Of a DNA stretch of 24,761 nucleotides, positions 16,387 to 23,672 are shown piece after piece. Both the position numbers and the translations under genes were made by a program. The stretch lies in IMG/VR virus record IMGVR_UViG_3300005613_000400, positions 1 through 24,761 of that record; one strand, given 5' to 3'. Every line of letters begins with the position of its first letter. Position 1 is the stretch's first letter. The notes beneath the pieces were generated by a model. The model saw only the letters and a list, made by a program, of their open reading frames with translations. It did not search any database and was not told where the DNA came from. This stretch comes from a virus.

Positions 16387-16614
16387 ATGTTTGAATTGAT
16401 TGCGGGATACAAAGGTTTAGTTATTTCTTTAATACTATCAACTGGTGATATTTTAAAAGTTGAAACTCATAACTTAGATTGTGCTGTTTGGTGGGATAAA
16501 TATGTTATTACACACGAAAGAAAAATTCCTTTACCAAAACAAAACCATTACTTTCATACTTTTAAAGGTGAGGTTGTTGTTGGTTACCATTGTAGTGATA
16601 AAGAGCCTAAATAG
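16387..16614 (+). CDS. Small protein, unknown
   Basis: This 75-residue protein starts 3 bases after the previous stop, without an obvious ribosome binding site. The hydrophobic N-terminus GYKGLVISLILSTGDIL may be a beta-rich core rather than a membrane helix because polar residues interrupt it; Trp, His and Cys residues follow. It converges with the leftward gene at 16607 with an 8-base overlap of 3' ends. No family is recognised. Confidence 0.55.
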   Translation: MFELIAGYKGLVISLILSTGDILKVETHNLDCAVWWDKYVITHERKIPLPKQNHYFHTFKGEVVVGYHCSDKEPK

Positions 16615-16816
16615 ATTCTTGCTCTTTACAAGAAAAATTAACTAAAAGCTTATGTTTATTTACTTCTTCAACACCTATTTCTCTTATAACACCCATAGCA
16701 TTAAGAAAACCTGCGGTTGCACAATCATAATGATCGTTATATCTACCTATTTCTAGAGATTGTGAGCATTGCTGGGTTATAGCAGAACATATTTGTAGAA
16801 CTAATAAAAATTTCAT
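16607..16816 (-). CDS. Small secreted-type Cys protein, leftward
   Basis: This 69-residue protein begins with a short hydrophobic stretch (MKFLLVLQICSAI) that could be a signal or anchor segment. It continues with four or more Cys (CSAI, QQC, CATAGF, FSCKEQ) and a conserved-looking NDHYDCATAGFLNAMG block. I recognise this pattern from marine phage genomes, where such small Cys-containing exported-looking proteins recur without known function. It lies on the strand opposite to its neighbours and shares a divergent control region with the gene at 16906 that contains the TCTTAT-N4-ATAAGA dyad. Confidence 0.68.
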   Translation of the reverse strand: MKFLLVLQICSAITQQCSQSLEIGRYNDHYDCATAGFLNAMGVIREIGVEEVNKHKLLVNFSCKEQESI

Positions 16817-16833
16817 ATTGACTTTCTTTTAAA

Positions 16834-16849
16834 TCTTATCTAAATAAGA
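16834..16849. promoter_or_regulatory. Operator candidate, dyad site A
   Basis: TCTTAT-CTAA-ATAAGA is a perfect 6-bp inverted repeat with a 4-base centre. Read leftward it is TCTTATTTAGATAAGAT, which is 17 bases identical to site B at 21858. It sits between divergent genes, overlapping the -35 position of a rightward TATAAT at 16857 and lying just downstream of a leftward extended -10. Confidence 0.6.
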
Positions 16850-16856
16850 GATGTTA

Positions 16857-16872
16857 TATAATATTAATTATA
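16857..16872. promoter_or_regulatory. Divergent -10 elements
   Basis: A rightward TATAAT lies at 16857-16862. Leftward, TGATATAAT (an extended -10, TG-n-TATAAT) has its hexamer at 16867-16872. The two would drive the genes at 16906 (rightward) and 16816 (leftward), both within reach of dyad site A. Confidence 0.5.
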
Positions 16873-16905
16873 TCACACTGACAACATAAACAACTAGAGG
16901 TGAGT

Positions 16906-17166
16906 ATGAAAAAAATGACAGAAGAAGAATTTGCAGCTTACATAGCAGAACAGCAAGATGCAGGTATTCATTATAGAGAACCTTATGAAAAAGGTAGTTG
17001 GAAAGATAGACGAATAGCAGCTATAAACCGATTGTCTAATCATAAAGGTTGGCCTTGTAGTGATAACAATCGCTATTTTGAACAATATAATGCTATCTTA
17101 AACTCAGATGCAACATCACTTTTAGAATTTAAAAAACAATGGAAGGAAAAAAATGGACATAACTAA
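16906..17166 (+). CDS. Small protein, unknown
   Basis: I choose the ATG at 16906 (86 residues), placed just after AGAGGTGAG; a GTG at 16900 would add two residues but consumes the ribosome binding site. The N-terminus is acidic helical (MTEEEFAAYIAEQQDAG). The middle WKDRRIAAINRLSNHKGWPC is basic and the C-terminus is helical (SLLEFKKQWKEKNG). No family is recognised. The 3' end overlaps the ribbon-helix-helix candidate by 14 bases. Confidence 0.7.
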   Translation: MKKMTEEEFAAYIAEQQDAGIHYREPYEKGSWKDRRIAAINRLSNHKGWPCSDNNRYFEQYNAILNSDATSLLEFKKQWKEKNGHN

Positions 17167-17362
17167 ATGGAAAAGTATGGCAATCAAAAAAGAAAACCAT
17201 ACATTATTAAAGGGCCTATGTGCTGATAAGTACAGAGCTCCTGCAGCAATGTTTGAAAAGATCTTGTTAGACTACATAGACTTTCAAGCTAAGAAAAGAA
17301 AAATGAATGTAAATAAGTTTAAGGAAAATCTTATGAGAAAAGGTAATGGTAAATCAAAATGA
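17153..17362 (+). CDS. Ribbon-helix-helix-like candidate DNA-binding protein
   Basis: This 69-residue basic protein has the layout of a small RHH repressor. A short strand, WKSMAIKKE, is followed by helix HTLLKGLCADKY, a turn with RAPAAMF and helix EKILLDYIDFQAKKRK. A strand with alternating small or basic residues followed by two helices is the hallmark of Arc/CopG-type proteins, which bind inverted repeats as dimers. The overlaps with both neighbours (14 and 4 bases) show operon expression. It is the most plausible local binder of the TCTTAT-N4-ATAAGA sites, the first of which lies upstream of its own operon. The RHH assignment comes from pattern reading only. Confidence 0.6.
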   Translation: MDITKWKSMAIKKENHTLLKGLCADKYRAPAAMFEKILLDYIDFQAKKRKMNVNKFKENLMRKGNGKSK

Positions 17363-17580
17363 GCTTAACTCCTGAAGACATAAAAAGACTAAGTGCACTT
17401 AAAAAATTTAGCAAGGAATATTTTAAAGTTGAATTTGATGCGGATCAAAAAACTTTAACTTTAATTGTTAATGATACAACAAGAAACAGTATAGACTTAG
17501 CTGATGCTGAAGAATCATTTGATGATGCGCTTGAAGTAATAAAAAATTTTTTTATTGAATTAAGGGGGACTATACAATGA
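17359..17580 (+). CDS. Small acidic alpha/beta protein, unknown
   Basis: This 73-residue protein starts by ATGA overlap with the RHH candidate and ends by ATGA overlap with the next ORF. It has a basic helical start (LTPEDIKRLSALKKF), a two-strand segment (YFKVEFDADQKTLTLIVND) and an acidic helix. It may form a small alpha/beta fold. No family is recognised; operon position links it to the DNA-binding candidate. Confidence 0.62.
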   Translation: MSLTPEDIKRLSALKKFSKEYFKVEFDADQKTLTLIVNDTTRNSIDLADAEESFDDALEVIKNFFIELRGTIQ

Positions 17581-17822
17581 AGAAACCAAAACCTGTTGCC
17601 AATAGCACTAAACCATATATTAAACAAAAAAGATGGAGTATCATAGCCAACAAAATACACGATGAATGGTGTATCGAGAACGGTTACTCGATCAAGATTG
17701 AAGCACCAAGCTTCAAGCAACAGGCGTCAAGCGTTAAACCTGTAGATGTAACGGCACTTAATATGTACAACACTAACAACTTTGTAAATTATGAAGATCA
17801 AGAGACTAATCGTAAGAATTAG
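17577..17822 (+). CDS. Small basic protein, unknown
   Basis: This 81-residue protein has a Lys/Pro-rich start and a central helix KRWSIIANKIHDEWCIENGY, then a polar tail that looks disordered. It overlaps the upstream gene by 4 bases and the RMWYA paralogue at 17791 by 32 bases. The coding DNA holds a short perfect hairpin (TTGAAGC/GCTTCAA, 17698-17716). No family is recognised. Confidence 0.58.
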   Translation: MKKPKPVANSTKPYIKQKRWSIIANKIHDEWCIENGYSIKIEAPSFKQQASSVKPVDVTALNMYNTNNFVNYEDQETNRKN

Positions 17823-17916
17823 AATGTGGTATGCTAAGCTTAGGGGCCATAAAAGATGGGACTATGAGCCTAGTAAACATTATATGAGAAAAAGACACCA
17901 GGATGATACAGCATGA
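17791..17916 (+). CDS. RMWYA-type basic miniprotein, paralogue 2
   Basis: This 41-residue ORF starts at an ATG within the 3' end of the preceding gene. It encodes LIVRIRMWYAKLRGH, KRWDYEPSKHYM and RHQDDTA, closely matching the 47-residue ORF at 16240 (RMWYA, RGH, KRW, YEPSK, RHQDDTA all conserved, with a two-residue gap after RGH). Many of the differences are conservative and third-position codon changes are frequent, which suggests both copies are translated. The stop overlaps the next start (ATGA). Confidence 0.65.
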   Translation: MKIKRLIVRIRMWYAKLRGHKRWDYEPSKHYMRKRHQDDTA

Positions 17917-18035
17917 AAAAAAAGAAAAAATGGATTATTGATGGATATTATATTGATGAAAAAGGTATAGCTTGGACATTTTTATATTCTGCCGATGATT
18001 GGAGAAAGACTAAAAAAGTAAAAGGAGTGATATAA
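17913..18035 (+). CDS. Lys-rich miniprotein, unknown
   Basis: This 40-residue ORF opens with MKKKKKW, then IIDGYYIDEKGIAWTFLYS, which looks like two beta strands, and a basic C-terminus. It is joined to the upstream gene by ATGA and to the downstream gene by TAATG. Its place between two duplicated genes and tight coupling are the main support. Function is unknown. Confidence 0.55.
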   Translation: MKKKKKWIIDGYYIDEKGIAWTFLYSADDWRKTKKVKGVI

Positions 18036-18214
18036 TGAAAAAAGGTAATGGTTGGATGGAGTATACTAACTATGTTAGGCATTATATTGAAGATACGCCA
18101 ACAGGACATAAGATTACTTTAGTATCAGCAGACGACTCAACATTAGAAATTAATTGTGTATGGTCAGATAGATCTAGAGATAAAACAGGTCGTGTGACCC
18201 TTGCTAAAAAATAA
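18035..18214 (+). CDS. GWMEY-type small protein, paralogue 2
   Basis: This 59-residue protein is homologous to the C-terminal part of the 92-residue protein at 15969: GNGWMEYTNYVRHYIEDTPT, LVSADDSTLEINC and TGRV align without gaps across most of the length. It lacks the 33-35 residue N-terminal extension of its paralogue. AAAGGAG precedes the ATG by 6 bases (18021-18027). Function is unknown; the preserved Trp, Tyr, His and Cys positions mark the fold core. Confidence 0.7.
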   Translation: MKKGNGWMEYTNYVRHYIEDTPTGHKITLVSADDSTLEINCVWSDRSRDKTGRVTLAKK

Positions 18215-18241
18215 TGACTTGCAATAGGAGAAAAAAAGTTT

Positions 18242-18460
18242 ATGAATAAAAAAGAATCAACATTGATTTGCAACAAGTGCAAAGGAAACGGTTTTGTTAG
18301 AGGTTCATTAGGGAACACAGGAACTTGTATCCATTGCTTTGGATCAGGACATAACGACCACGCATCACGGACCACGGCTGATGATATATTAAGTTTATTA
18401 GATATGTGTGAAGATTATGTCGAAGAAGCCGAAAGTACCAAAATTCGAAAGACCCACTGA
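18242..18460 (+). CDS. DnaJ-type zinc-finger small protein
   Basis: This 72-residue protein contains two CxxCxGxG-like repeats: CNKCKGNGF and CIHCFGSGH, the half-sites of a DnaJ central zinc domain, separated by about 15 residues. No J domain is present, so it is a free-standing zinc finger, perhaps contacting a host chaperone, RNA or a partner protein. AGGAG precedes the ATG by 12 bases. The C-terminal acidic helix (DDILSLLDMCEDYVEEAE) overlaps the next gene. Confidence 0.8.
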   Translation: MNKKESTLICNKCKGNGFVRGSLGNTGTCIHCFGSGHNDHASRTTADDILSLLDMCEDYVEEAESTKIRKTH

Positions 18461-18740
18461 ACTAACAAAAGTGTTAGTGCTGATGGCTAAGCACGTACCA
18501 TACAAATATTATCAAAGACTTATAACTGTAATAGGTTCGCTTCTTACAGGTATAACTTTTGGTTATAAATCAGGTGGCATTAATACAGATTTTATTAGAG
18601 ACGCAATAGAGATTTACGGATTCCATCGTGGTGAAGACATAGAAGGTGATGAGCTAAAGGATGAGATAAAAAATAAAATAAAAAGAAATGATAATGTCAT
18701 TCCGTTCAAGGTTATACAGGGTGGTAGAGAAGATGTATAA
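18417..18740 (+). CDS. Small protein, unknown
   Basis: This 107-residue protein starts at the ATG at 18417 (a GTG three codons upstream is an alternative). The N-terminus is Lys/Pro-rich. A hydrophobic helix, YYQRLITVIGSLLTGITFGY, follows at about residues 32-51, then an acidic/basic helical tail ending in VIPFKVIQGG. The hydrophobic part could be a membrane helix or buried core. It overlaps the DnaJ-type gene by 44 bases and the next ORF by 8. Confidence 0.6.
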   Translation: MSKKPKVPKFERPTELTKVLVLMAKHVPYKYYQRLITVIGSLLTGITFGYKSGGINTDFIRDAIEIYGFHRGEDIEGDELKDEIKNKIKRNDNVIPFKVIQGGREDV

Positions 18741-18942
18741 TACTAGAATGGAAAAAAATATAGACAGGGATTATTATTTAATTTCATCTTTAATTAAGGA
18801 TTTAAAATATCAAGGCGCTGAAATCACATCTATCATTCAAGATGTTCATATTAATTACGAGGTCGCCTCTCAAAGAAAAAATAATAGAGAGGTTCACTAT
18901 CGTGATTTATTCGCCAGACTTGTTAAGACTTATGGGCACTAA
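18733..18942 (+). CDS. Small protein, unknown
   Basis: I choose the ATG at 18733 (69 residues), which overlaps the previous stop; an earlier ATG at 18688 would read through the body of the upstream gene. The sequence is helical (YYLISSLIKDLKYQGAEITS) with a basic C-terminus ending VKTYGH. The alternation of Ile and charged residues suggests a small helical or HTH-like domain, but no family is recognised. Confidence 0.55.
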   Translation: MYNTRMEKNIDRDYYLISSLIKDLKYQGAEITSIIQDVHINYEVASQRKNNREVHYRDLFARLVKTYGH

Positions 18943-19369
18943 TATAGCTGCTGACCTTCTTAACCAAAATCATATATCTAACGAACAGAAATTGTGGAGA
19001 CACGTTATTGTCAACGCTATGGAAGATGCACGAGCCACACCTAGTGATAGGAAAACTTCCATTTATAAATTTGATGCACACGAATGGATTATGGAATCTA
19101 AAGACTTTGAGATCATTTGTTGGTGGGCCAATTGGGACCCGGAGGAAGTTAGAGCTCAGTATAAACGTGCATTAAAAGATTTAAACATTAAATTTACTTA
19201 CAAACAAATAGCTTGGAAACAGTATTACGAATTGTTTAAAAAATTAAAAAGAGCAAAAGTTGCAGAAGATAGAAAGTATTTACGTAATAAGGTAGAGGAA
19301 GCAAGACGTGTTGTTATGAACGCAAAAGCCATTGCTATGACTACATTTTTTATTTCTGTCACTGCTTGA
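18932..19369 (+). CDS. Conserved phage protein, possible HTH-type
   Basis: The true start is probably the ATG at 18932 (145 residues), overlapping the previous stop; the longer frame to 18842 only duplicates upstream coding DNA. The protein contains DAHEWIMESKDFEIICWWAN followed by WDPEEVRAQYKRAL, a pattern I know from small phage proteins (an aromatic helix followed by D-P-x-x-V/I-R), where a DNA-binding role has been suggested. The C-terminal half is strongly basic and helical (KLKRAKVAEDRKYLRNKVEEARR). The final codon region contains the -35 of the next promoter. Confidence 0.68.
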   Translation: MGTNIAADLLNQNHISNEQKLWRHVIVNAMEDARATPSDRKTSIYKFDAHEWIMESKDFEIICWWANWDPEEVRAQYKRALKDLNIKFTYKQIAWKQYYELFKKLKRAKVAEDRKYLRNKVEEARRVVMNAKAIAMTTFFISVTA

Positions 19370-19394
19370 TCCCATCTAATTTATCTAAGATAAT
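19366..19394 (+). promoter_or_regulatory. Promoter TTGATC-17-GATAAT
   Basis: TTGATC at 19366-19371 and GATAAT at 19389-19394 are 17 bases apart, close to the sigma70 consensus. The predicted start near 19401 leaves a short leader with AAGGAGA before the ATG at 19425. The spacer contains TTATC-TAA-GATAA, a possible weak relative of the dyad operator. Confidence 0.6.
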
Positions 19395-19424
19395 TGTGTT
19401 CTAACAATCAACGAAGGAGACGCT

Positions 19425-19604
19425 ATGTTCGGATACAAAGACGACGAAGTCGAAAATAAAAACAAAATAGAGCAATTAGAAGATAAGGTTGAAGAACTTG
19501 AAAATAAGATTGCAAACATTATGGACGTATTAGAAATCCAAGAAGAAGAAGTGGATGATGATATGGACGAAGATGTTGAAGACGAAGAAGAAAACGAAGA
19601 GTAA
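19425..19604 (+). CDS. Acidic coiled-coil small protein
   Basis: This 59-residue protein consists of a heptad-like charged helix (KIEQLEDKVEELENKIANIMDV) followed by a tail made almost wholly of Asp and Glu. It has a strong ribosome binding site (AAGGAGA, about 8 bases before the ATG) and its own promoter, so it is probably well expressed. A very acidic tail on a coiled coil suggests a dimeric protein that mimics nucleic acid or binds a basic partner, as several phage inhibitors of host nucleic-acid proteins do; this is inference. Confidence 0.75.
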   Translation: MFGYKDDEVENKNKIEQLEDKVEELENKIANIMDVLEIQEEEVDDDMDEDVEDEEENEE

Positions 19605-19661
19605 AATAAAAACGCCCACTGCAGGAAAATGCTAACAAAAAAGCTAAAACCCGCAGTGGGC
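19605..19661 (-). terminator. Leftward intrinsic terminator of the alpha-CTD-like gene
   Basis: GCCCACTGC (19614-19622) and GCAGTGGGC (19653-19661) form a perfect 9-bp stem with a 30-base loop. On the minus strand the stem is followed by GTTTTTATTTT. It lies 43 bases past the stop of the leftward gene, in the expected place. The long loop is unusual. Confidence 0.65.
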
Positions 19662-19704
19662 TAACGATAGGAGCGCTAATGCGTCTGTCACTAGCACCTA
19701 ACGA

Positions 19705-20136
19705 TTAACAAAATTTGACGTTCTTGTCAAAGGAATTATCTTCCCACTTATCCAGCTCCTGCTTAACATCATACACATAATTTTCATATTCTGTTTCAGG
19801 GTCCATATAGAACGGATCGTTTCTGAACTTATCTAATTTGTCCTCATCATAAGCACAGAATGTGGATGCAACTAACTCTACATTAGTACGCTTGCTTCTT
19901 TTATTAGCATACGCATAATCAGGTAACCTATGGCCAAAGAAGGATAAGTATTTAACTATCCTTTCTGTTTGTTTACCGGTAAAGCCTGAATTCATAAAGT
20001 CAGATAATCTAAAATGTAATAGATCACCAATACTTACATCGGGCCCAAATTTATCAGTTAGTTTTTTAATCAACGATCGGTCTGTACCGAAGTGTTGAGT
20101 GTTTTTAAGTTTAGCGTTGTACGCTTTTATTTTCAT
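19705..20136 (-). CDS. Small leftward protein with RNA polymerase alpha-CTD-like HhH stretch
   Basis: I choose the start at 20136 (143 residues) because AGGAG lies 8 bases before it; an upstream ATG at 20175 lies within a dyad and lacks a ribosome binding site. Residues of roughly 20-62 read RSLIKKL..., VSIGDLLHFRLSDFMNSG, FTGKQTERIVKYLSFFGHRL. This follows the pattern of the bacterial RNA polymerase alpha C-terminal domain (L..L, IGDLL, D/E-L, GKKS-x-EI, L...G..L), a helix-hairpin-helix fold that contacts DNA and regulators. The C-terminal half is acidic and Tyr-rich. The gene has its own promoter candidate and terminator and runs against all neighbours. A transcription-modulating role is my inference. 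Confidence 0.65.
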   Translation of the reverse strand: MKIKAYNAKLKNTQHFGTDRSLIKKLTDKFGPDVSIGDLLHFRLSDFMNSGFTGKQTERIVKYLSFFGHRLPDYAYANKRSKRTNVELVASTFCAYDEDKLDKFRNDPFYMDPETEYENYVYDVKQELDKWEDNSFDKNVKFC

Positions 20137-20158
20137 AGTTTTTACTCCTATGTTACAC

Positions 20159-20176
20159 AATGACTTAAGTGTCATT
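20159..20176. promoter_or_regulatory. Dyad in the leader of the alpha-CTD-like gene
   Basis: AATGAC and GTCATT flank TTAAGT as a perfect 6-bp inverted repeat. It lies between the promoter candidate and the ribosome binding site of the leftward gene, so it could be an operator for autoregulation. Confidence 0.4.
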
Positions 20177-20185
20177 GATAGAAGT

Positions 20186-20213
20186 AAATTAGTTTAATGA
20201 AATTAATCGTCAA
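20186..20213 (-). promoter_or_regulatory. Leftward promoter candidate TTGACG-16-TAATTT
   Basis: On the minus strand TTGACG (20213 to 20208) is followed after 16 bases by TAATTT (20191 to 20186). This predicts a start near 20179, upstream of the 20136 gene. The -10 is only a moderate match. Confidence 0.4.
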
Positions 20214-20241
20214 TAACTTTTTTTATAGGATAGTCTGATAT

Positions 20242-20275
20242 AAAAAACCCAGGTTGGATGAGGCAACCTGGGTTT
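20242..20275 (-). terminator. Leftward intrinsic terminator, 12-bp stem
   Basis: AAACCCAGGTTG (20245-20256) and CAACCTGGGTTT (20264-20275) form a perfect 12-bp stem with a 7-base loop. On the minus strand the hairpin is followed by a T-run (T6 pairing with A at 20242-20247), while on the plus strand no T-run follows. It therefore ends transcription coming leftward from the gap at 20276-20713, where no leftward gene is seen, and insulates the alpha-CTD-like gene. Confidence 0.8.
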
Positions 20276-20460
20276 GTAGAAAGGAATGAAAAACAAATGA
20301 TGCAATATTATATTACACTTTATAGTTGTATGTCTATATCCTAGTTTCCCGAGTGCTTGGGAAAGAGGTTTCCTAAGTGCTTGGGATGATCGTGGTTCGT
20401 GGCTCTAAAGTATGGGGTCACGCACCACGGCTCACGGTTCAGTTGTCATCTACTATAATC
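20276..20460 (-). ncRNA. Candidate structured ncRNA in GC-rich pocket
   Basis: This stretch has no convincing ORF and contains a conspicuously GC-rich part (about 20345-20440) in an AT-rich genome. It includes two 18-base near-identical repeats and an 11-bp stem (CGTGGTTCGTG 20391-20401 with CACGCACCACG 20419-20429, one mismatch). Leftward transcription would end at the strong intrinsic terminator at 20242-20275, as expected for a small RNA. A weak -10 (TATAGT, minus strand, near 20455) is present; the promoter is not convincing. Confidence 0.4.
20345..20386. repeat. Two 18-base direct repeats
   Basis: TTTCCCGAGTGCTTGGGA (20345-20362) and TTTCCTAAGTGCTTGGGA (20369-20386) differ at two positions and are spaced at 24 bases. 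Each is itself a partial palindrome (TCCC...GGGA). They could be protein sites or paired stem-loops in a transcript. Confidence 0.75.
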
Positions 20461-20504
20461 CCGCTCCTTAGAGAAAAAAAATAAAAAAAAAATTTGTAAG
20501 GAAA

Positions 20505-20608
20505 AAACTAGGAAACTAGGAAAAAATGCAAAAAAGCAAGTAAAATCAAGGCAAATATCTTCCCAATTTAAGAAAAAAAACTAGGAAAATTCCCAGAAAA
20601 CTAGGAAA
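20505..20608. repeat. Four AAACTAGGAAA repeats in an A-tract region
   Basis: Exact copies of AAACTAGGAAA occur at 20505-20515, 20513-20523, 20578-20588 and 20598-20608. The surrounding 20461-20660 is extremely A/T-rich with several A- and T-tracts on one strand. The rest of the 20461-20713 gap has no gene. Such iterated sites beside AT-rich DNA suit a replication origin, or a packaging (pac/cos) site recognised by the small terminase encoded directly downstream. Confidence 0.6.
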
Positions 20609-20713
20609 AATCTTGATCCAACCTATTAAATTTGTAAAAATTTTTTTATTTTTCCTACTTTGGGGTATATAGCAGATGAGGAATTGGGAAAAGTATGATA
20701 CAAATAGGTCAAT

Positions 20714-21226
20714 ATGGGTAAAAAGAAAAACGCATTAAAATCAATTACTGAGCTTACGCCAAGGCAAAAGATGTTTGTTGATATCTATGTAGAGAACTAT
20801 GGCCAAATGACTAAGGTTAAAGCTGCAGAGATGGCAGGGTATAAATCTAGCAGTAAATATGGTCCCACTGAAATAGCATCAAGATTAACTAATCCTGATG
20901 TCAATCCACATGTATGCAGATATATGGAAATGAAATTACAAAAAGAATTACAAATATATGAAAAAGATAAATTAAGAAAATATAAAAGATTTGACCACTT
21001 GTCTAAGAAAGCAGAAGACAAAGGACAGTTAGGTGTAGCGGTAAACGCAGAATACCGAGCTGGCCAAATGGCAGATATGTTTGTAAGTAAAGCACAGATA
21101 ACACATGTTGGATTGGAGGGTATGTCACGTGAGCAATTGGAGAAGCGCTTATCCGAACTTGAAAGTAAAATCGGAGAAGCCAAAAACATTATTGACGTCA
21201 CGCCAAATAAAGTTATTGAAGAATAA
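20714..21226 (+). CDS. terS: Small terminase subunit
   Basis: This 170-residue protein recognises phage DNA for packaging. The N-terminus LTPRQKMFVDIYVENYGQMT followed by KAAEMAGY and, further on, PDVNPHVCRYMEMKL matches the helix-turn-helix DNA-binding start of terminase small subunits of the Terminase_2 type. A helical central region and a C-terminal coiled segment (SREQLEKRLSELESKIGEA) for oligomerisation follow. The ribosome binding site is weak. The gene directly follows the iterated AT-rich region, a plausible binding site. Unusually, a full-length large terminase gene does not follow within the window. Confidence 0.85.
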   Translation: MGKKKNALKSITELTPRQKMFVDIYVENYGQMTKVKAAEMAGYKSSSKYGPTEIASRLTNPDVNPHVCRYMEMKLQKELQIYEKDKLRKYKRFDHLSKKAEDKGQLGVAVNAEYRAGQMADMFVSKAQITHVGLEGMSREQLEKRLSELESKIGEAKNIIDVTPNKVIEE

Positions 21227-21317
21227 CGATTGGCATTCTTTTATCCAGGTTTTTAATGAAGTGCATAATCCTGGGATGTGTACTTCTGTTGGAACTGTAA
21301 ATGTGAAAATAAATTAG
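21216..21317 (+). pseudogene. Short ORF overlapping terS end, possible large-terminase remnant
   Basis: From a TTG at 21216 a 33-residue frame runs KNNDWHSFIQVFNEVHNPGM and on to a TAG at 21317. It overlaps the terS stop by 11 bases, the usual place for a large terminase start. The composition (Trp, His, Phe, Asn) looks protein-coding, but the frame closes after 33 residues just before a tandem repeat. It may be the broken 5' end of a large terminase gene, a real miniprotein or a chance frame; I cannot decide between them. Confidence 0.3.
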
Positions 21318-21318
21318 G

Positions 21319-21406
21319 ATGGCTAAAACTTTATTATGGGAATTTAGAGCAAATGGCTAAAACTTTACTATGGGAATTTAGAGCAAATGGCTAAAACTTT
21401 ACTATG
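21319..21406 (+). repeat. 34-bp tandem repeat, 2.6 copies, each with a micro-ORF
   Basis: Units at 21319-21352 and 21353-21386 differ at one base; a partial third covers 21387-21406. Each full unit starts ATGGCTAAAACTTTA and encodes MAKTLLWEFRANG, whose TAA stop lies inside the next unit's ATGGCTAA, so start and stop overlap by 8 bases. The third copy reads MAKTLLCNF and stops. Within a unit, GCTAAA can pair with TTTAGAGC with one bulge. Confidence 0.85.
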
Positions 21407-21423
21407 TAATTTTTGAGATTTTT

Positions 21424-21720
21424 ATGAAACGAAAAATAAAAATAAATAAAAAAATAAAATCAGATTTAGAAAAATATCCAATGGTTGAGTGTCGTTGGTT
21501 GGATATTGTTTCAGACGCAAGTTGGCAAAGCATAGATAATTTAAAAAATACAAAACTTGCTACTTGCATAACTAAAGGACATTTATTAAGTCAATCAAAA
21601 GGTATCACTAGAATATTTGGCGACTACTCTTTAAAAGATAATTCAAAAACAGACATAGAAGAAGTAGGCAATACTACTATTATTCCAAATAGCGTAATAG
21701 TTGAAATTAAAAAAATATAG
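21424..21720 (+). CDS. Conserved small phage protein
   Basis: This 98-residue protein has a Lys/Ile-rich N-terminus, then VECRWLDIVSDASWQSIDNL, LATCITKGHLLSQSKGITRI and finally NTTIIPNSVIVEIKKI. The arrangement W-x-DI...W, C-x-T-x-G, then an IP-x-S-VI end is a recurring pattern in marine phage and bacterial small proteins of unknown function, probably a compact beta-rich fold. It begins the right-hand module, just after the tandem repeat. Confidence 0.75.
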   Translation: MKRKIKINKKIKSDLEKYPMVECRWLDIVSDASWQSIDNLKNTKLATCITKGHLLSQSKGITRIFGDYSLKDNSKTDIEEVGNTTIIPNSVIVEIKKI

Positions 21721-21755
21721 TTGTAATTTAATTTTTACTTTATATATAGAGGTGA

Positions 21756-21854
21756 ATGGATTTTTTAAGATTACTAGAAACATTATTTTCCGCTAATTTT
21801 TTGGCTTTTATTCTATTTATACTACTATTTTTATTATTATCTCTTTTTATTTGA
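21756..21854 (+). CDS. 32-residue membrane miniprotein
   Basis: This ORF has a very good ribosome binding site (AGAGGTGA before the ATG, the same as at 16906). It encodes an N-terminal MDFLRLLETLFSANF followed by an uninterrupted run of Leu, Phe and Ile to the end, a single membrane helix. It could be a small holin- or regulator-type peptide. A TTGTAA at 21721 with TATATA near 21743 may be its promoter. The stop lies inside the TTGACA of the next promoter. Confidence 0.6.
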   Translation: MDFLRLLETLFSANFLAFILFILLFLLLSLFI

Positions 21855-21879
21855 CAATCTTATTTAGATAAGATAACTC
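21851..21879 (+). promoter_or_regulatory. Promoter with dyad operator, site B
   Basis: TTGACA at 21851-21856 is followed by the dyad TCTTAT-TTAG-ATAAGA at 21858-21873 (7 bp each side if the flanking A and T are counted: ATCTTAT/ATAAGAT). The -10 at the usual distance is weak (TAACTC at 21874). The gene starting at 21909 follows, with AAAGGAG before it. Confidence 0.6.
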
Positions 21880-21908
21880 TTTTTTAAAAAACGAAAAAGG
21901 AGTAAAAA

Positions 21909-22901
21909 ATGCAAAAACAAAAACGAATAAGACTAAATGCTGAGATTAGAAATAGGTTAGCTATTCAATTCAAAAATCATTTAGAAAATGAAAGCACACA
22001 AGAAAAAGAAGCTTTCTTACAATCAAGAGAACAATATCCTTTAATGGAAAAAACAGCGTTTGAGACAGCAAGACAAATTGTTTCAAGAGTTTATCCAAAA
22101 GAAGATGTTGAAAAAGCAAAATATCTTTCTGATAAATTTCAAAACATAGATATTTATAGAAAAGATAGTTGTTTTAATTTTTCTTTTACCGCAGAAGCAG
22201 AAGAAAGAAGATATAACTCACATACAAATCAAAACGAAACAATCAAAGTATTAAAATCACAAGAAAAACATTTTGACTTTGGTTTGAGAGGGTCAACAAC
22301 AGGAAACACTTACGATAGCCAAATTGATTTTGCCTTAGCTATGTATAGGGAAGAATTAAAGAAAAATCCTAATTGTAATCCTGATATCCACATTGAACAA
22401 GAAAACGCTAGTCCTTATAAATTAAAATTTACAGAAGCAAATGATAAATTTTTTGGATTAGATAATAAACAAGCTGAGGACACTATTGTTTATCAGTACG
22501 CTAAAGACTTTGAACTTGAAGTTTTAGGGTCAAGCTATTGCAATAGTAGAGTATTGAAAGCTGATAATACAGAAATAGAAGTATTAGAAAAATGGTTAAT
22601 GGCAAAACAAAAAGTTATTGATACTCACGCTATTTGGATAAAAACTATTTTAGACCAAATGAAAATAATCAAACAATCTCTTCATAGTTATAAATACTTT
22701 GATGAAGCGTTTGAGTTGGCTAAAACTTTAAATCTTGATTTAAAAGAAGTTGAAGAGATAAAAGAAAACTCTTCATCACTTACAATATTCAATCCGAATA
22801 ATGTGGCTTCTTTACTTCAAGCAATGAAAAACAAAAAACAAACAAGAGAAGCAAAAATAAAATCTAGATTGCTTTATGAAAAGCAACAAGCAAATGGCTA
22901 A
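21909..22901 (+). CDS. 330-residue phage protein, unknown
   Basis: This is the largest protein of the right-hand module. The N-terminus is basic and helical (RIRLNAEIRNRLAIQFKNHL). Next come a Tyr/Phe-rich beta-like middle with YRKDSCFNFSFTAEAEERRY and FDFGLRGSTTGNTYD, and a helical C-terminal half (WLMAKQKVIDTHAIWIKTIL). The N-terminal helical pattern distantly recalls the Nmad5 family (a putative nucleotide-modification-associated domain found in phages), but I cannot confirm this. AAAGGAG lies 8 bases before the ATG, and the dyad promoter at 21851 precedes it. The stop overlaps the next start as ATGGCTAA. Confidence 0.75.
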   Translation: MQKQKRIRLNAEIRNRLAIQFKNHLENESTQEKEAFLQSREQYPLMEKTAFETARQIVSRVYPKEDVEKAKYLSDKFQNIDIYRKDSCFNFSFTAEAEERRYNSHTNQNETIKVLKSQEKHFDFGLRGSTTGNTYDSQIDFALAMYREELKKNPNCNPDIHIEQENASPYKLKFTEANDKFFGLDNKQAEDTIVYQYAKDFELEVLGSSYCNSRVLKADNTEIEVLEKWLMAKQKVIDTHAIWIKTILDQMKIIKQSLHSYKYFDEAFELAKTLNLDLKEVEEIKENSSSLTIFNPNNVASLLQAMKNKKQTREAKIKSRLLYEKQQANG

Positions 22902-23118
22902 ACAAAAAAGCGAGTGGCTAACAACCACTCGCACAACAAGAAAGCTTATGGCACTTAAAAAAATAAAATCTTGGAATATTGCAGTAGAGTGGCAACATTC
23001 AGACGATACTTGGAGTATCGAGTGGATAGAACAAGACAGTATAGATAAAACTACTTTTAAAAAGATAGAAAAATTTTTGGAAGAGTTTGCAAAAATAGAA
23101 AACAAACAAGAGGAGTAA
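22894..23118 (+). CDS. Small Trp-rich protein, unknown
   Basis: I choose the ATG at 22894 (74 residues), coupled to the upstream stop by the ATGGCTAA overlap; an ATG at 22876 would add six residues. The middle SWNIAVEWQHSDDTWSIEWIEQD looks like two beta strands with several Trp, and the ends are charged helices. The first codons contain a perfect 8-bp hairpin. No family is recognised. Confidence 0.65.
   Translation: MAKQKSEWLTTTRTTRKLMALKKIKSWNIAVEWQHSDDTWSIEWIEQDSIDKTTFKKIEKFLEEFAKIENKQEE
22904..22932 (-). terminator. 8-bp hairpin, leftward terminator-like
   Basis: GCGAGTGG (22910-22917) and CCACTCGC (22925-22932) pair perfectly around a 7-base loop. On the minus strand the stem is followed by TTTTTTGTTT, as in an intrinsic terminator; on the plus strand there is no T-run. 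All genes near it run rightward, so it would stop antisense transcription or act as a translational hairpin. Confidence 0.5.
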
Positions 23119-23121
23119 AAA

Positions 23122-23286
23122 ATGAAAATAAAACTATTTAATATATTAGATATATTTAAAAAGAAAAAACCTAACGCAACACTTCAAACAAGTTTTGAAG
23201 AATTAGAAAATATAGACCCATATATTTTTGAAAAAGTTATATCTTTAAAAAAATATAAATTAAAAAAGGCGGTACAAAATGGATAA
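23122..23286 (+). CDS. Small Lys-rich protein, unknown
   Basis: This 54-residue protein has AGGAG 8 bases before the ATG. It begins with MKIKLFNILDIFKKKK, an amphipathic basic helix, continues with SFEELENIDPYIFEKVISL and ends in a Lys-rich segment and VQNG. The stop overlaps the next start within ATGGATAA, an 8-base overlap like that at 22894. Function is unknown. Confidence 0.6.
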   Translation: MKIKLFNILDIFKKKKPNATLQTSFEELENIDPYIFEKVISLKKYKLKKAVQNG

Positions 23287-23647
23287 AAAAGTTTGTCAAA
23301 ACCCATATTGTTCAGGTTATAAAACTGACGATAGATTTATTAAAGTAGGTGGTCAAAAGTATTTGGCGGATAGGGTTAACTCTAGTTTGCGTTATCAAAA
23401 TGGAAATTTTTGTACACGCACCTGTTTTGAAGAGTGGTTTGGTATTTATGGCGATAGGGCTATTGATTTTATAGGCAGAAAAACTAAAAGAACTATTAAT
23501 TATAATAATATTAGTATTAATAGAAGAAGATATGATTTAGCAAGGGCTTTGCCAAATGGTTGGCTAGACTATCATAATAACCCACAAATTAGGCAACAAA
23601 TAGAAACACAACTATTAAGCGAACTTCAAAGCAATAATAATACTTGA
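23279..23647 (+). CDS. Cys-containing small protein, probable zinc-binding
   Basis: This 122-residue protein has CQNPYC near the N-terminus and FCTRTCFEEWFGIYGDRAID about 30 residues later, giving a C-x4-C...C-x3-C metal site. The block FGIYGDRAIDFIGR is a conserved pattern I have seen in marine phage proteins of unknown function. The rest is basic with an Asn/Gln-rich tail. The start overlaps the upstream gene by 8 bases. A nucleic-acid-binding zinc protein is likely but not shown. Confidence 0.75.
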   Translation: MDKKVCQNPYCSGYKTDDRFIKVGGQKYLADRVNSSLRYQNGNFCTRTCFEEWFGIYGDRAIDFIGRKTKRTINYNNISINRRRYDLARALPNGWLDYHNNPQIRQQIETQLLSELQSNNNT

Positions 23648-23672
23648 CTATCTTATGAAGATAAGAGATAAA
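23644..23672 (+). promoter_or_regulatory. Promoter TTGACT-17-GATAAA with dyad operator, site C
   Basis: TTGACT (23644-23649) and GATAAA (23667-23672) are 17 bases apart, and the spacer contains the dyad TCTTAT-GAAG-ATAAGA (23651-23666). The -35 overlaps the previous stop. The gene at 23715 follows with AAAGGAG. Spacing of TTGACW to the dyad is the same as in site B. Confidence 0.65.

Follow-up and report, generated by a model that had tools for sequence, protein, structure and literature searches.

Paired ATRRGA half-sites on host-type promoters of HTVC023P-type pelagiphages and a ribbon-helix-helix-like protein as their candidate regulator

The DNA analyzed here, which we refer to as the window, is the whole of a 24,761-base viral record (IMG/VR IMGVR_UViG_3300005613_000400). 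It contains three exact TCTTAT-N4-ATAAGA dyads, labeled sites A, B, and C (Table 1). The computations described below cover the operator itself, its spacing, its linkage to promoters, its conservation in front of orthologous genes, and its co-occurrence with and proximity to a gene (17153-17362) for a small ribbon-helix-helix-like (RHH-like) protein. We favor, with moderate confidence, the reading that the dyads are operators on promoters of the host sigma70 type that are bound by a phage regulator, for which the RHH-like protein is the best candidate, and that this regulator is probably a repressor.

Results

The dyads of the window

A first-pass annotation of the window had described three exact dyads with a 4-base center, all intergenic, and these are present: three were counted, compared with a mean of 0.02 and a maximum of 1 in 100 dinucleotide shuffles. 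When up to two mismatches to the dyad were allowed there was no excess in the window (5 observed, 4.5 expected). The observation that B and C each begin one base after a TTGACW hexamer was also borne out, as was the identity of 17 bases, TCTTATTTAGATAAGAT, between site A read leftward and site B. At C the −35 hexamer shares bases with the stop codon that closes the preceding open reading frame (ORF), the C dyad itself being intergenic. The annotation had placed the sites between −35 and −10 elements, which is correct for B and C but not for A. The TTGACT hexamer at A ends 10 bases ahead of the dyad, which is therefore not confined to the spacer, as in B and C, but overlaps the predicted −10 element TAAATA (16841-16846), a shift of about one helical turn.

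As a post hoc control we counted dyads of any sequence. A 6-N4-6 dyad occurred in triplicate in 6 of 300 Markov shuffles of the window, and a triple was found in 1 of 60 shuffles when the control was widened to spacers of 0-12. Because any-dyad triples arise at the former frequency, the window alone is only moderately significant and no more than suggestive. The proof of an operator rests on the relatives of the window.

Half-site and spacing in related phages

The TerS and PolA (DNA polymerase) proteins of the window are 70.7 and 59.6% identical, respectively, to those of Pelagibacter phage HTVC023P, and by this measure the window belongs to an HTVC023P-type pelagiphage. TerL was not identified within the window. 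These phages are very abundant bacteria-infecting viruses of the ocean. Two close contigs (L009 and L010) carry the same three sites at the same B-C distance of 1793 bases. Inspection by eye of the equivalent positions in HTVC023P, between the divergent genes gp10 and gp11 and between TerS and TerL, revealed TTGACW followed by ATGGGA/TCCCAT variants of the half-site, and in HTVC027P, also by eye, promoter-like TTGAC sequences are followed by ATAGGA or, once, by TCCCAT.

The half-site consensus ATRRGA was chosen after viewing relatives, and so an internal control on spacing was required. We searched 86 sequences: the window, two pieces of HTVC023P, portions of two further phages, and loci that had been fetched. 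Masking of redundancy at 90% identity left 673,193 bases. Pieces of the window (L001-L003), duplicates (L005, L007, L011, and L012), and loci found by the dyad pattern alone (L006 and L008) were removed; L004, found by the dyad pattern and again by protein, was retained. The inverted pattern TCYYAT-Nk-ATRRGA occurred 76 times at k = 4 and 0-10 times at each of the 30 other spacings between k = 0 and k = 30. Half-sites in direct orientation showed the same preference, with 43 pairs at k = 4 and 0-8 at other spacings. The resulting 119 N4 pairs are spread over 53 of the 86 sequences, and 77 of them are intergenic even though 88% of bases are coding on a crude ORF map, which answers the concern that the dyad might be equally frequent in coding regions. 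Among the 238 half-sites, ATAAGA (111) and ATGGGA (105) predominate over ATAGGA (17) and ATGAGA (5). The ATAAGA/ATAAGA form seen in the window is a minority, accounting for 9 of the 76 inverted pairs. The description of the element as a dyad consequently holds for the inverted pairs, but the direct orientation is also used, and the actual half-site ATRRGA is wider than the one first annotated.

A two-turn inverted form (N14) was found in 10 cases, 4 of them with TTGAC just upstream; a further 5 N14 cases have TTTACA, TTGATA, or TTGCTA at the same place, as judged by eye. A third phased half-site, which had been suspected by eye, was not found: there is no exact one 10 bp further on either side. 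On inspection, secondary peaks at inverted N9 (9 cases), inverted N25 (10), and everted N3 (16) proved for the most part to be coding sequence shared by homologous loci or to extend sites counted before, and were discarded.

In 23 whole HTVC023P-type records, selected on length and totaling 984,026 bases by summing, the inverted form occurs 41 times and in 20 of the records, compared with a single match to a reversed-pattern control. Nine other pelagiphages (473,645 bases by summing) show no excess, with 2 sites against 2 control matches; both sites are of the form TCTCATGGTGATGAGA and occur in two records of similar length. The absence of an excess in these nine phages rules out AT-rich host composition as the cause of the pattern.

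Linkage to promoters

A TTGAC motif starts no more than 27 bases upstream, on either strand, of 82 of the 119 pairs, where about 5 would be expected from a hand calculation using a density of 0.00097 per strand position. When the distance to the first half-site is limited to at most 21 bases there are 84 TTGAC links, of which 82 fall at 0-4 or 9-14 bases and the other two at 8 and 20. Roughly one DNA turn separates the two offset classes. In B and C the operator is in the spacer (first class), and in A it lies over the −10 element (second class). The operator overlaps the −35 to −10 region of sigma70-type promoters at a fixed phase. The best hexamer located 16-18 bases from TTGAC matches TATAAT at 6 (a perfect TATAAT), 5, 4, 3, or 2 positions in 9, 15, 38, 19, and 3 cases, respectively, each count being the best of three spacings and having no control set.

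The position of the operator bears on the mode of regulation. A protein bound in either offset class would block host RNA polymerase, and a repressor is therefore most likely. That the bound protein is instead an activator or a temporal switch acting in mid-infection is, in our judgment, unlikely. Lytic phages without an RNA polymerase often use activators or temporal switch factors, and the best −10 hexamer matches TATAAT at no more than 4 of 6 positions in 60 of the 84 TTGAC-linked cases, so that some of these promoters may be weak. Set against this are the placement of the sites between the −35 and −10 elements or over the −10 element, where binding blocks polymerase, and the presence of a TTGAC core with an assumed 16-18-bp spacer, because of which neither a MotA-like replacement of the −35 element nor a MerR-like rescue is needed.

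Use of the sites by a host (SAR11) transcription factor would be in keeping with the resemblance of the promoters to host sigma70 promoters and with the action of the host factor CtrA on Alphaproteobacteria phages, as described in PMC9437464. The nine other pelagiphages have no excess of sites, however, and five of them infect HTCC1062; we regard a host factor as very improbable. CtrA-controlled promoters in particular were rejected on a comparison of motifs, with no scan of the window for CtrA sites: the motif that recurs here, TCYYAT-N4-ATRRGA, differs from the TTAA-N7-TTAA given for CtrA in PMC9437464.

The dyads could in principle act as RNA, forming hairpins in leader structures or terminators. 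The three sites of the window can fold to hairpins of 6-7 bp with energies of −2.7 to −4.0 kcal/mol, and 38 of 47 TTGAC-linked inverted sites can pair as RNA if G-U is allowed. Such hairpins are weak, full pairing is impossible in the other 9 of the 47, 43 pairs are direct repeats, and the sites lie mostly upstream of the predicted transcription start, leaving an RNA role with a negligible probability.

Two observations concern individual promoters in the relatives. In L091 (7640) a leftward promoter, TTGACC/G-N17-TATAAT, overlaps a direct half-site pair lying directly on the gp09-type start codon, with equivalents in L028, L031, L035, L039, L047, L049, L052, L054, L056, and L062; the −10 element reads TATACT in L091 and L035. 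The annotated start of HTVC023P gp28 (16568) falls inside an operator (L091 16558-16573), and a later start, about 42 bases past the operator, is the better fit.

Genes behind the operators

By a simple rule, 83 of the 84 TTGAC-linked site/strand cases have a downstream ORF. These ORFs form 31 clusters that are mutually dissimilar at E 0.001, 15 with at least two members and 16 single, some of the latter possibly misassigned. The site recurs at several unrelated transcription units, and the operator-bearing blocks include GP88-like proteins. For the gene behind site C, orthologues provided 48 distinct upstream regions, of which 43 contain a phased pair scoring at least 12 with half-sites 10 or 20 bases apart. 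Other ORFs, some of which may themselves belong to the regulon, gave 77 such cases among 600 upstream regions. At a spacing of 10 alone 34 of the 48 regions reach this score, compared with 0, 7, 4, and 4 at spacings of 8, 9, 11, and 12. The conservation upstream of orthologous genes on which the annotation had made its case depend is thus present.

In eight records of at least 50 kb with strict inverted sites, 13 of the 14 sites lie in the interval from −1 to +10 kb relative to the RHH-like gene in the records as written, and the 14th (in G002) falls within the same range if distance is counted around the record ends, as for a circular or permuted molecule. The joint control of the small-gene region and the right-hand module that had been proposed agrees with the positions of the sites, which extend over both the small-gene block and that following TerS. 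Its scope was drawn too narrowly: the regulon does link these two regions but is not confined to the genome of the window. It is a group-wide phage regulon, larger than first noted.

In L058 (6575-7554) an operator-bearing block between TerS and TerL encodes, a few genes past a site, a GIY-YIG protein and a Mom-like DNA-modification protein (phrog_1384, E 2e-29).

A candidate regulator

A 69-residue protein, the product of the second gene behind site A, has relatives in 21 of the 23 HTVC023P-type records. The exceptions are a 30.7-kb fragment that, to judge from its relative L028, probably stops short of the gene, and HTVC027P, in which an iterated profile alone detects a weak candidate, gp21. 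The family was found in none of the nine other pelagiphages, and among 385 genomes of one bacterial class it was present in one, the metagenome-assembled genome (MAG) at the center of the sample. We scored the 1.5 kb upstream of the gene against control windows from the structural half of HTVC023P. Of 53 loci, which include near-duplicates, two second gene copies, and seven MAG contigs, 43 had a site at or above their 95th percentile (13.0), accompanied by TTGAC in 40 of these. The same test at half-site spacings of 8, 11, and 12 gave 4, 4, and 3 of 53.

Two AlphaFold2 models of family members (mean pLDDT 79.1 and 80.8) both have helices at residues 13-26 and 30-48 or 30-49, and in the second model residues 1-12 are non-helical. 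The leading rows of a structure comparison of a family member are mostly RHH proteins: Reg576 (Z 5.7), CopG, Arc, and PutA (4.7 each). MazE and MatP are also among these rows, and the first plainly unrelated protein is ClpP at rank 31 (Z 2.8); families unlisted in such comparisons are not thereby excluded. Residues Lys-5, Lys-7, Ser-8, and Ala-10 are invariant or nearly so in the family, a pattern that would be compatible with contacts of a ribbon to operator bases. Matches to the Pfam model RHH_5 were obtained for 8 of 31 family members (best E 0.023).

A number of results weigh against this reading. None of the curated Pfam RHH profiles reaches its cut-off, the best RHH_1 match being 18.3 bits for the 023Pt_psg01 homologue against a cut-off of 20.5, and all Foldseek E-values are greater than 1; for these reasons we name the protein RHH-like and do not file it as RHH. 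Scans of six relatives on MAG contigs listed no Pfam model for RHH. Residues 3-8 of the first AlphaFold2 model form a helix and not a strand; a monomer model cannot display a ribbon formed between subunits. The HTVC027P homologue was missed at E 0.001 by a profile excluding it, and two further records of at least 50 kb, HTVC027P and 023Pt_psg01, have no strict inverted site over their whole length. In the upstream test a half-site spacing of 9 still gave 17 of 53 loci, and site A, with a score of 14.4, exceeds the 95th percentile but lies below the control maximum of 15.1. The best upstream site in many loci belongs to the leftward promoter of a neighboring gene and not to the RHH-like operon itself, because of which autoregulation is best supported for the clade of the window (site A) and for the L070-L090 clade, where a site is located about 480-495 bases upstream of the RHH-like gene on the same strand in most rows. 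By inspection, half-site type does not follow protein sequence: ATAAGA and ATGGGA sites coexist in one genome (L010, L004), and no co-variation was seen. The −10 element of site B is poor. Finally, many loci are homologous, and as masking was only at 90% identity the 119 pairs are not independent.

A real and phage-specific operator that is bound by another phage protein, of unknown fold, the RHH-like gene being merely a neighbor, is a possibility to which we give a low but appreciable probability. In its favor, the small genes scanned gave a DNA-binding domain at a convincing score in no case, and the evidence for an RHH fold consists of sequence matches that are weak and Z values that are modest. 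Against a different binder stand the distribution of the RHH-like gene (21 of 23 records against 0 of 9 controls), its nearness to a site in most loci, and the common spacing of the two orientations, which one dimer per half-site would explain in the manner of the RHH omega regulator (PMC4803016). The RHH-like protein is thus retained as the best candidate. The annotated reading of a phage regulator stands insofar as a phage-encoded regulator is well supported, if indirectly.

A second, divergent copy of the RHH-like family is present in two related phages (L053 7103-7315 and L054 7102-7314). Relatives also occur on contigs L115-L121, from MAGs titled as bacteria plus one archaeon; these are probably phage contigs binned wrongly, and the inverted operator pair is also found on L115, L116, and L119.

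Other features of the window

The coordinates of the sites and neighboring genes are collected in Table 1. A BLASTN comparison of the right-hand module with phages gave no match. Tandem repeats of about 2-4 copies of 29-38 bp begin 83-177 bases past the end of the terS match in 39 of 63 loci (window 21319-21406; L091 12469-12565). Their sequences differ widely between phages, and they are a candidate site for packaging or for the binding of TerS. Stretches of actaggaaa are repeated at 20500-20615, in the long non-coding region ahead of terS, as they are in the matching gap of HTVC023P.

Table 1. Operators, promoter elements, and adjacent genes in the window
Feature	Coordinates	Strand	Evidence or remarks
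Small ORF, 69 residues, reading away from site A	16607-16816	−	28 similar ORFs in collected loci, duplicates included
−35 hexamer TTGACT of predicted rightward promoter at A	16818-16823	+	Sequence; offset 10 to dyad
Operator A, TCTTATCTAAATAAGA, over predicted −10; between leftward ORF 16607-16816 and RHH-like operon	16834-16849	+	Also in contigs L009, L010, L115
First ORF of operon behind A	16900-17166	+	88 residues from GTG 16900; probable start ATG 16906, 86 residues
Candidate regulator, 69-residue RHH-like protein, conserved N terminus of MDIxKWKSVAI type	17153-17362	+	Sequence relatives, structure models
−35 hexamer TTGACA at B	21851-21856	+	Sequence; ends one base before dyad
Operator B, TCTTATTTAGATAAGA, in promoter spacer; best −10 candidate weak (2 of 6)	21858-21873	+	Conserved in L009, L010
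330-residue protein behind B	21909-22901	+	39% identity to HTVC027P gp35
−35 hexamer TTGACT at C	23644-23649	+	Sequence; ends one base before dyad
Operator C, TCTTATGAAGATAAGA, in 17-bp spacer ahead of GATAAA (23667-23672)	23651-23666	+	Orthologous sites
104-residue protein behind C, orthologues across phage group	23715-24029	+	phrog_6244, E 0.00018

Discussion

The element consists of two 6-bp ATRRGA half-sites, one DNA turn apart, on host-type promoters, placed either in the −35/−10 spacer or over the −10 element. The strongest mechanistic hint is the spacing shared by direct and inverted pairs, because of which we propose that the RHH-like protein binds the half-sites with, probably, one dimer on each. 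What follows is our inference as to binding by this protein, repression, and when the switch acts. The accessory blocks would first be transcribed from the host-type promoters, with the RHH-like protein among the first products; the protein would then close these promoters, that of its own operon at site A included. The putative targets of repression comprise the block of small accessory genes, that following TerS, and the RHH-like operon.

PMC12753301 describes HTVC027P as a lytic phage that has no RNA polymerase and relies on the host enzyme, with early genes that are all functionally uncharacterized. Searches of the open-access literature on pelagiphages did not find this regulon, site, or candidate regulator: the word promoter is absent from the available text of PMC12753301 and from PMC9599517, the former also lacking operator and ribbon, and PMC10149686 contains none of promoter, repressor, operator, motif, or ribbon. 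The operator can serve as a marker for accessory islands under common control, and together with the candidate regulator and the predicted regulon it brings an open question within reach of a few straightforward assays of binding and reporter expression.

Systems in which a phage regulator acts through operators placed on promoters are already known. The operator of Arc from phage P22 lies within the −35/−10 region of a phage promoter, and Arc shuts down lytic-phase genes. Judged by site position, the RHH-like protein most likely acts as an autoregulated repressor in the manner of Arc, which it also resembles in being a small phage protein of RHH-like predicted shape. It differs in that no significant sequence relation to Arc was found and in the many promoters, the 31 unrelated ORF clusters, and the common direct pairs of the present system. 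Reg576 of plasmid p576 (PDB 6gyg) is the best structural match of the two modeled family members (Z 5.6 and 5.7), but it is a plasmid regulator, sequence identity is 16-18%, and these Z values are too low to exclude a merely common arrangement. CtrA sites in Alphaproteobacteria phages are likewise dyads clustered at phage regulatory regions (PMC9437464), although there the regulator is that of the host and the motif is a different one. The omega regulator, an RHH protein of the omega-epsilon-zeta locus of pSM19035, recognizes NATCACN heptads, whereas the pelagiphage operator has two 6-bp half-sites at a 10-bp pitch without a third exact one; yet omega, according to PMC4803016, places one dimer on each short repeat of both palindromic and non-palindromic arrays, as we propose for the RHH-like protein.

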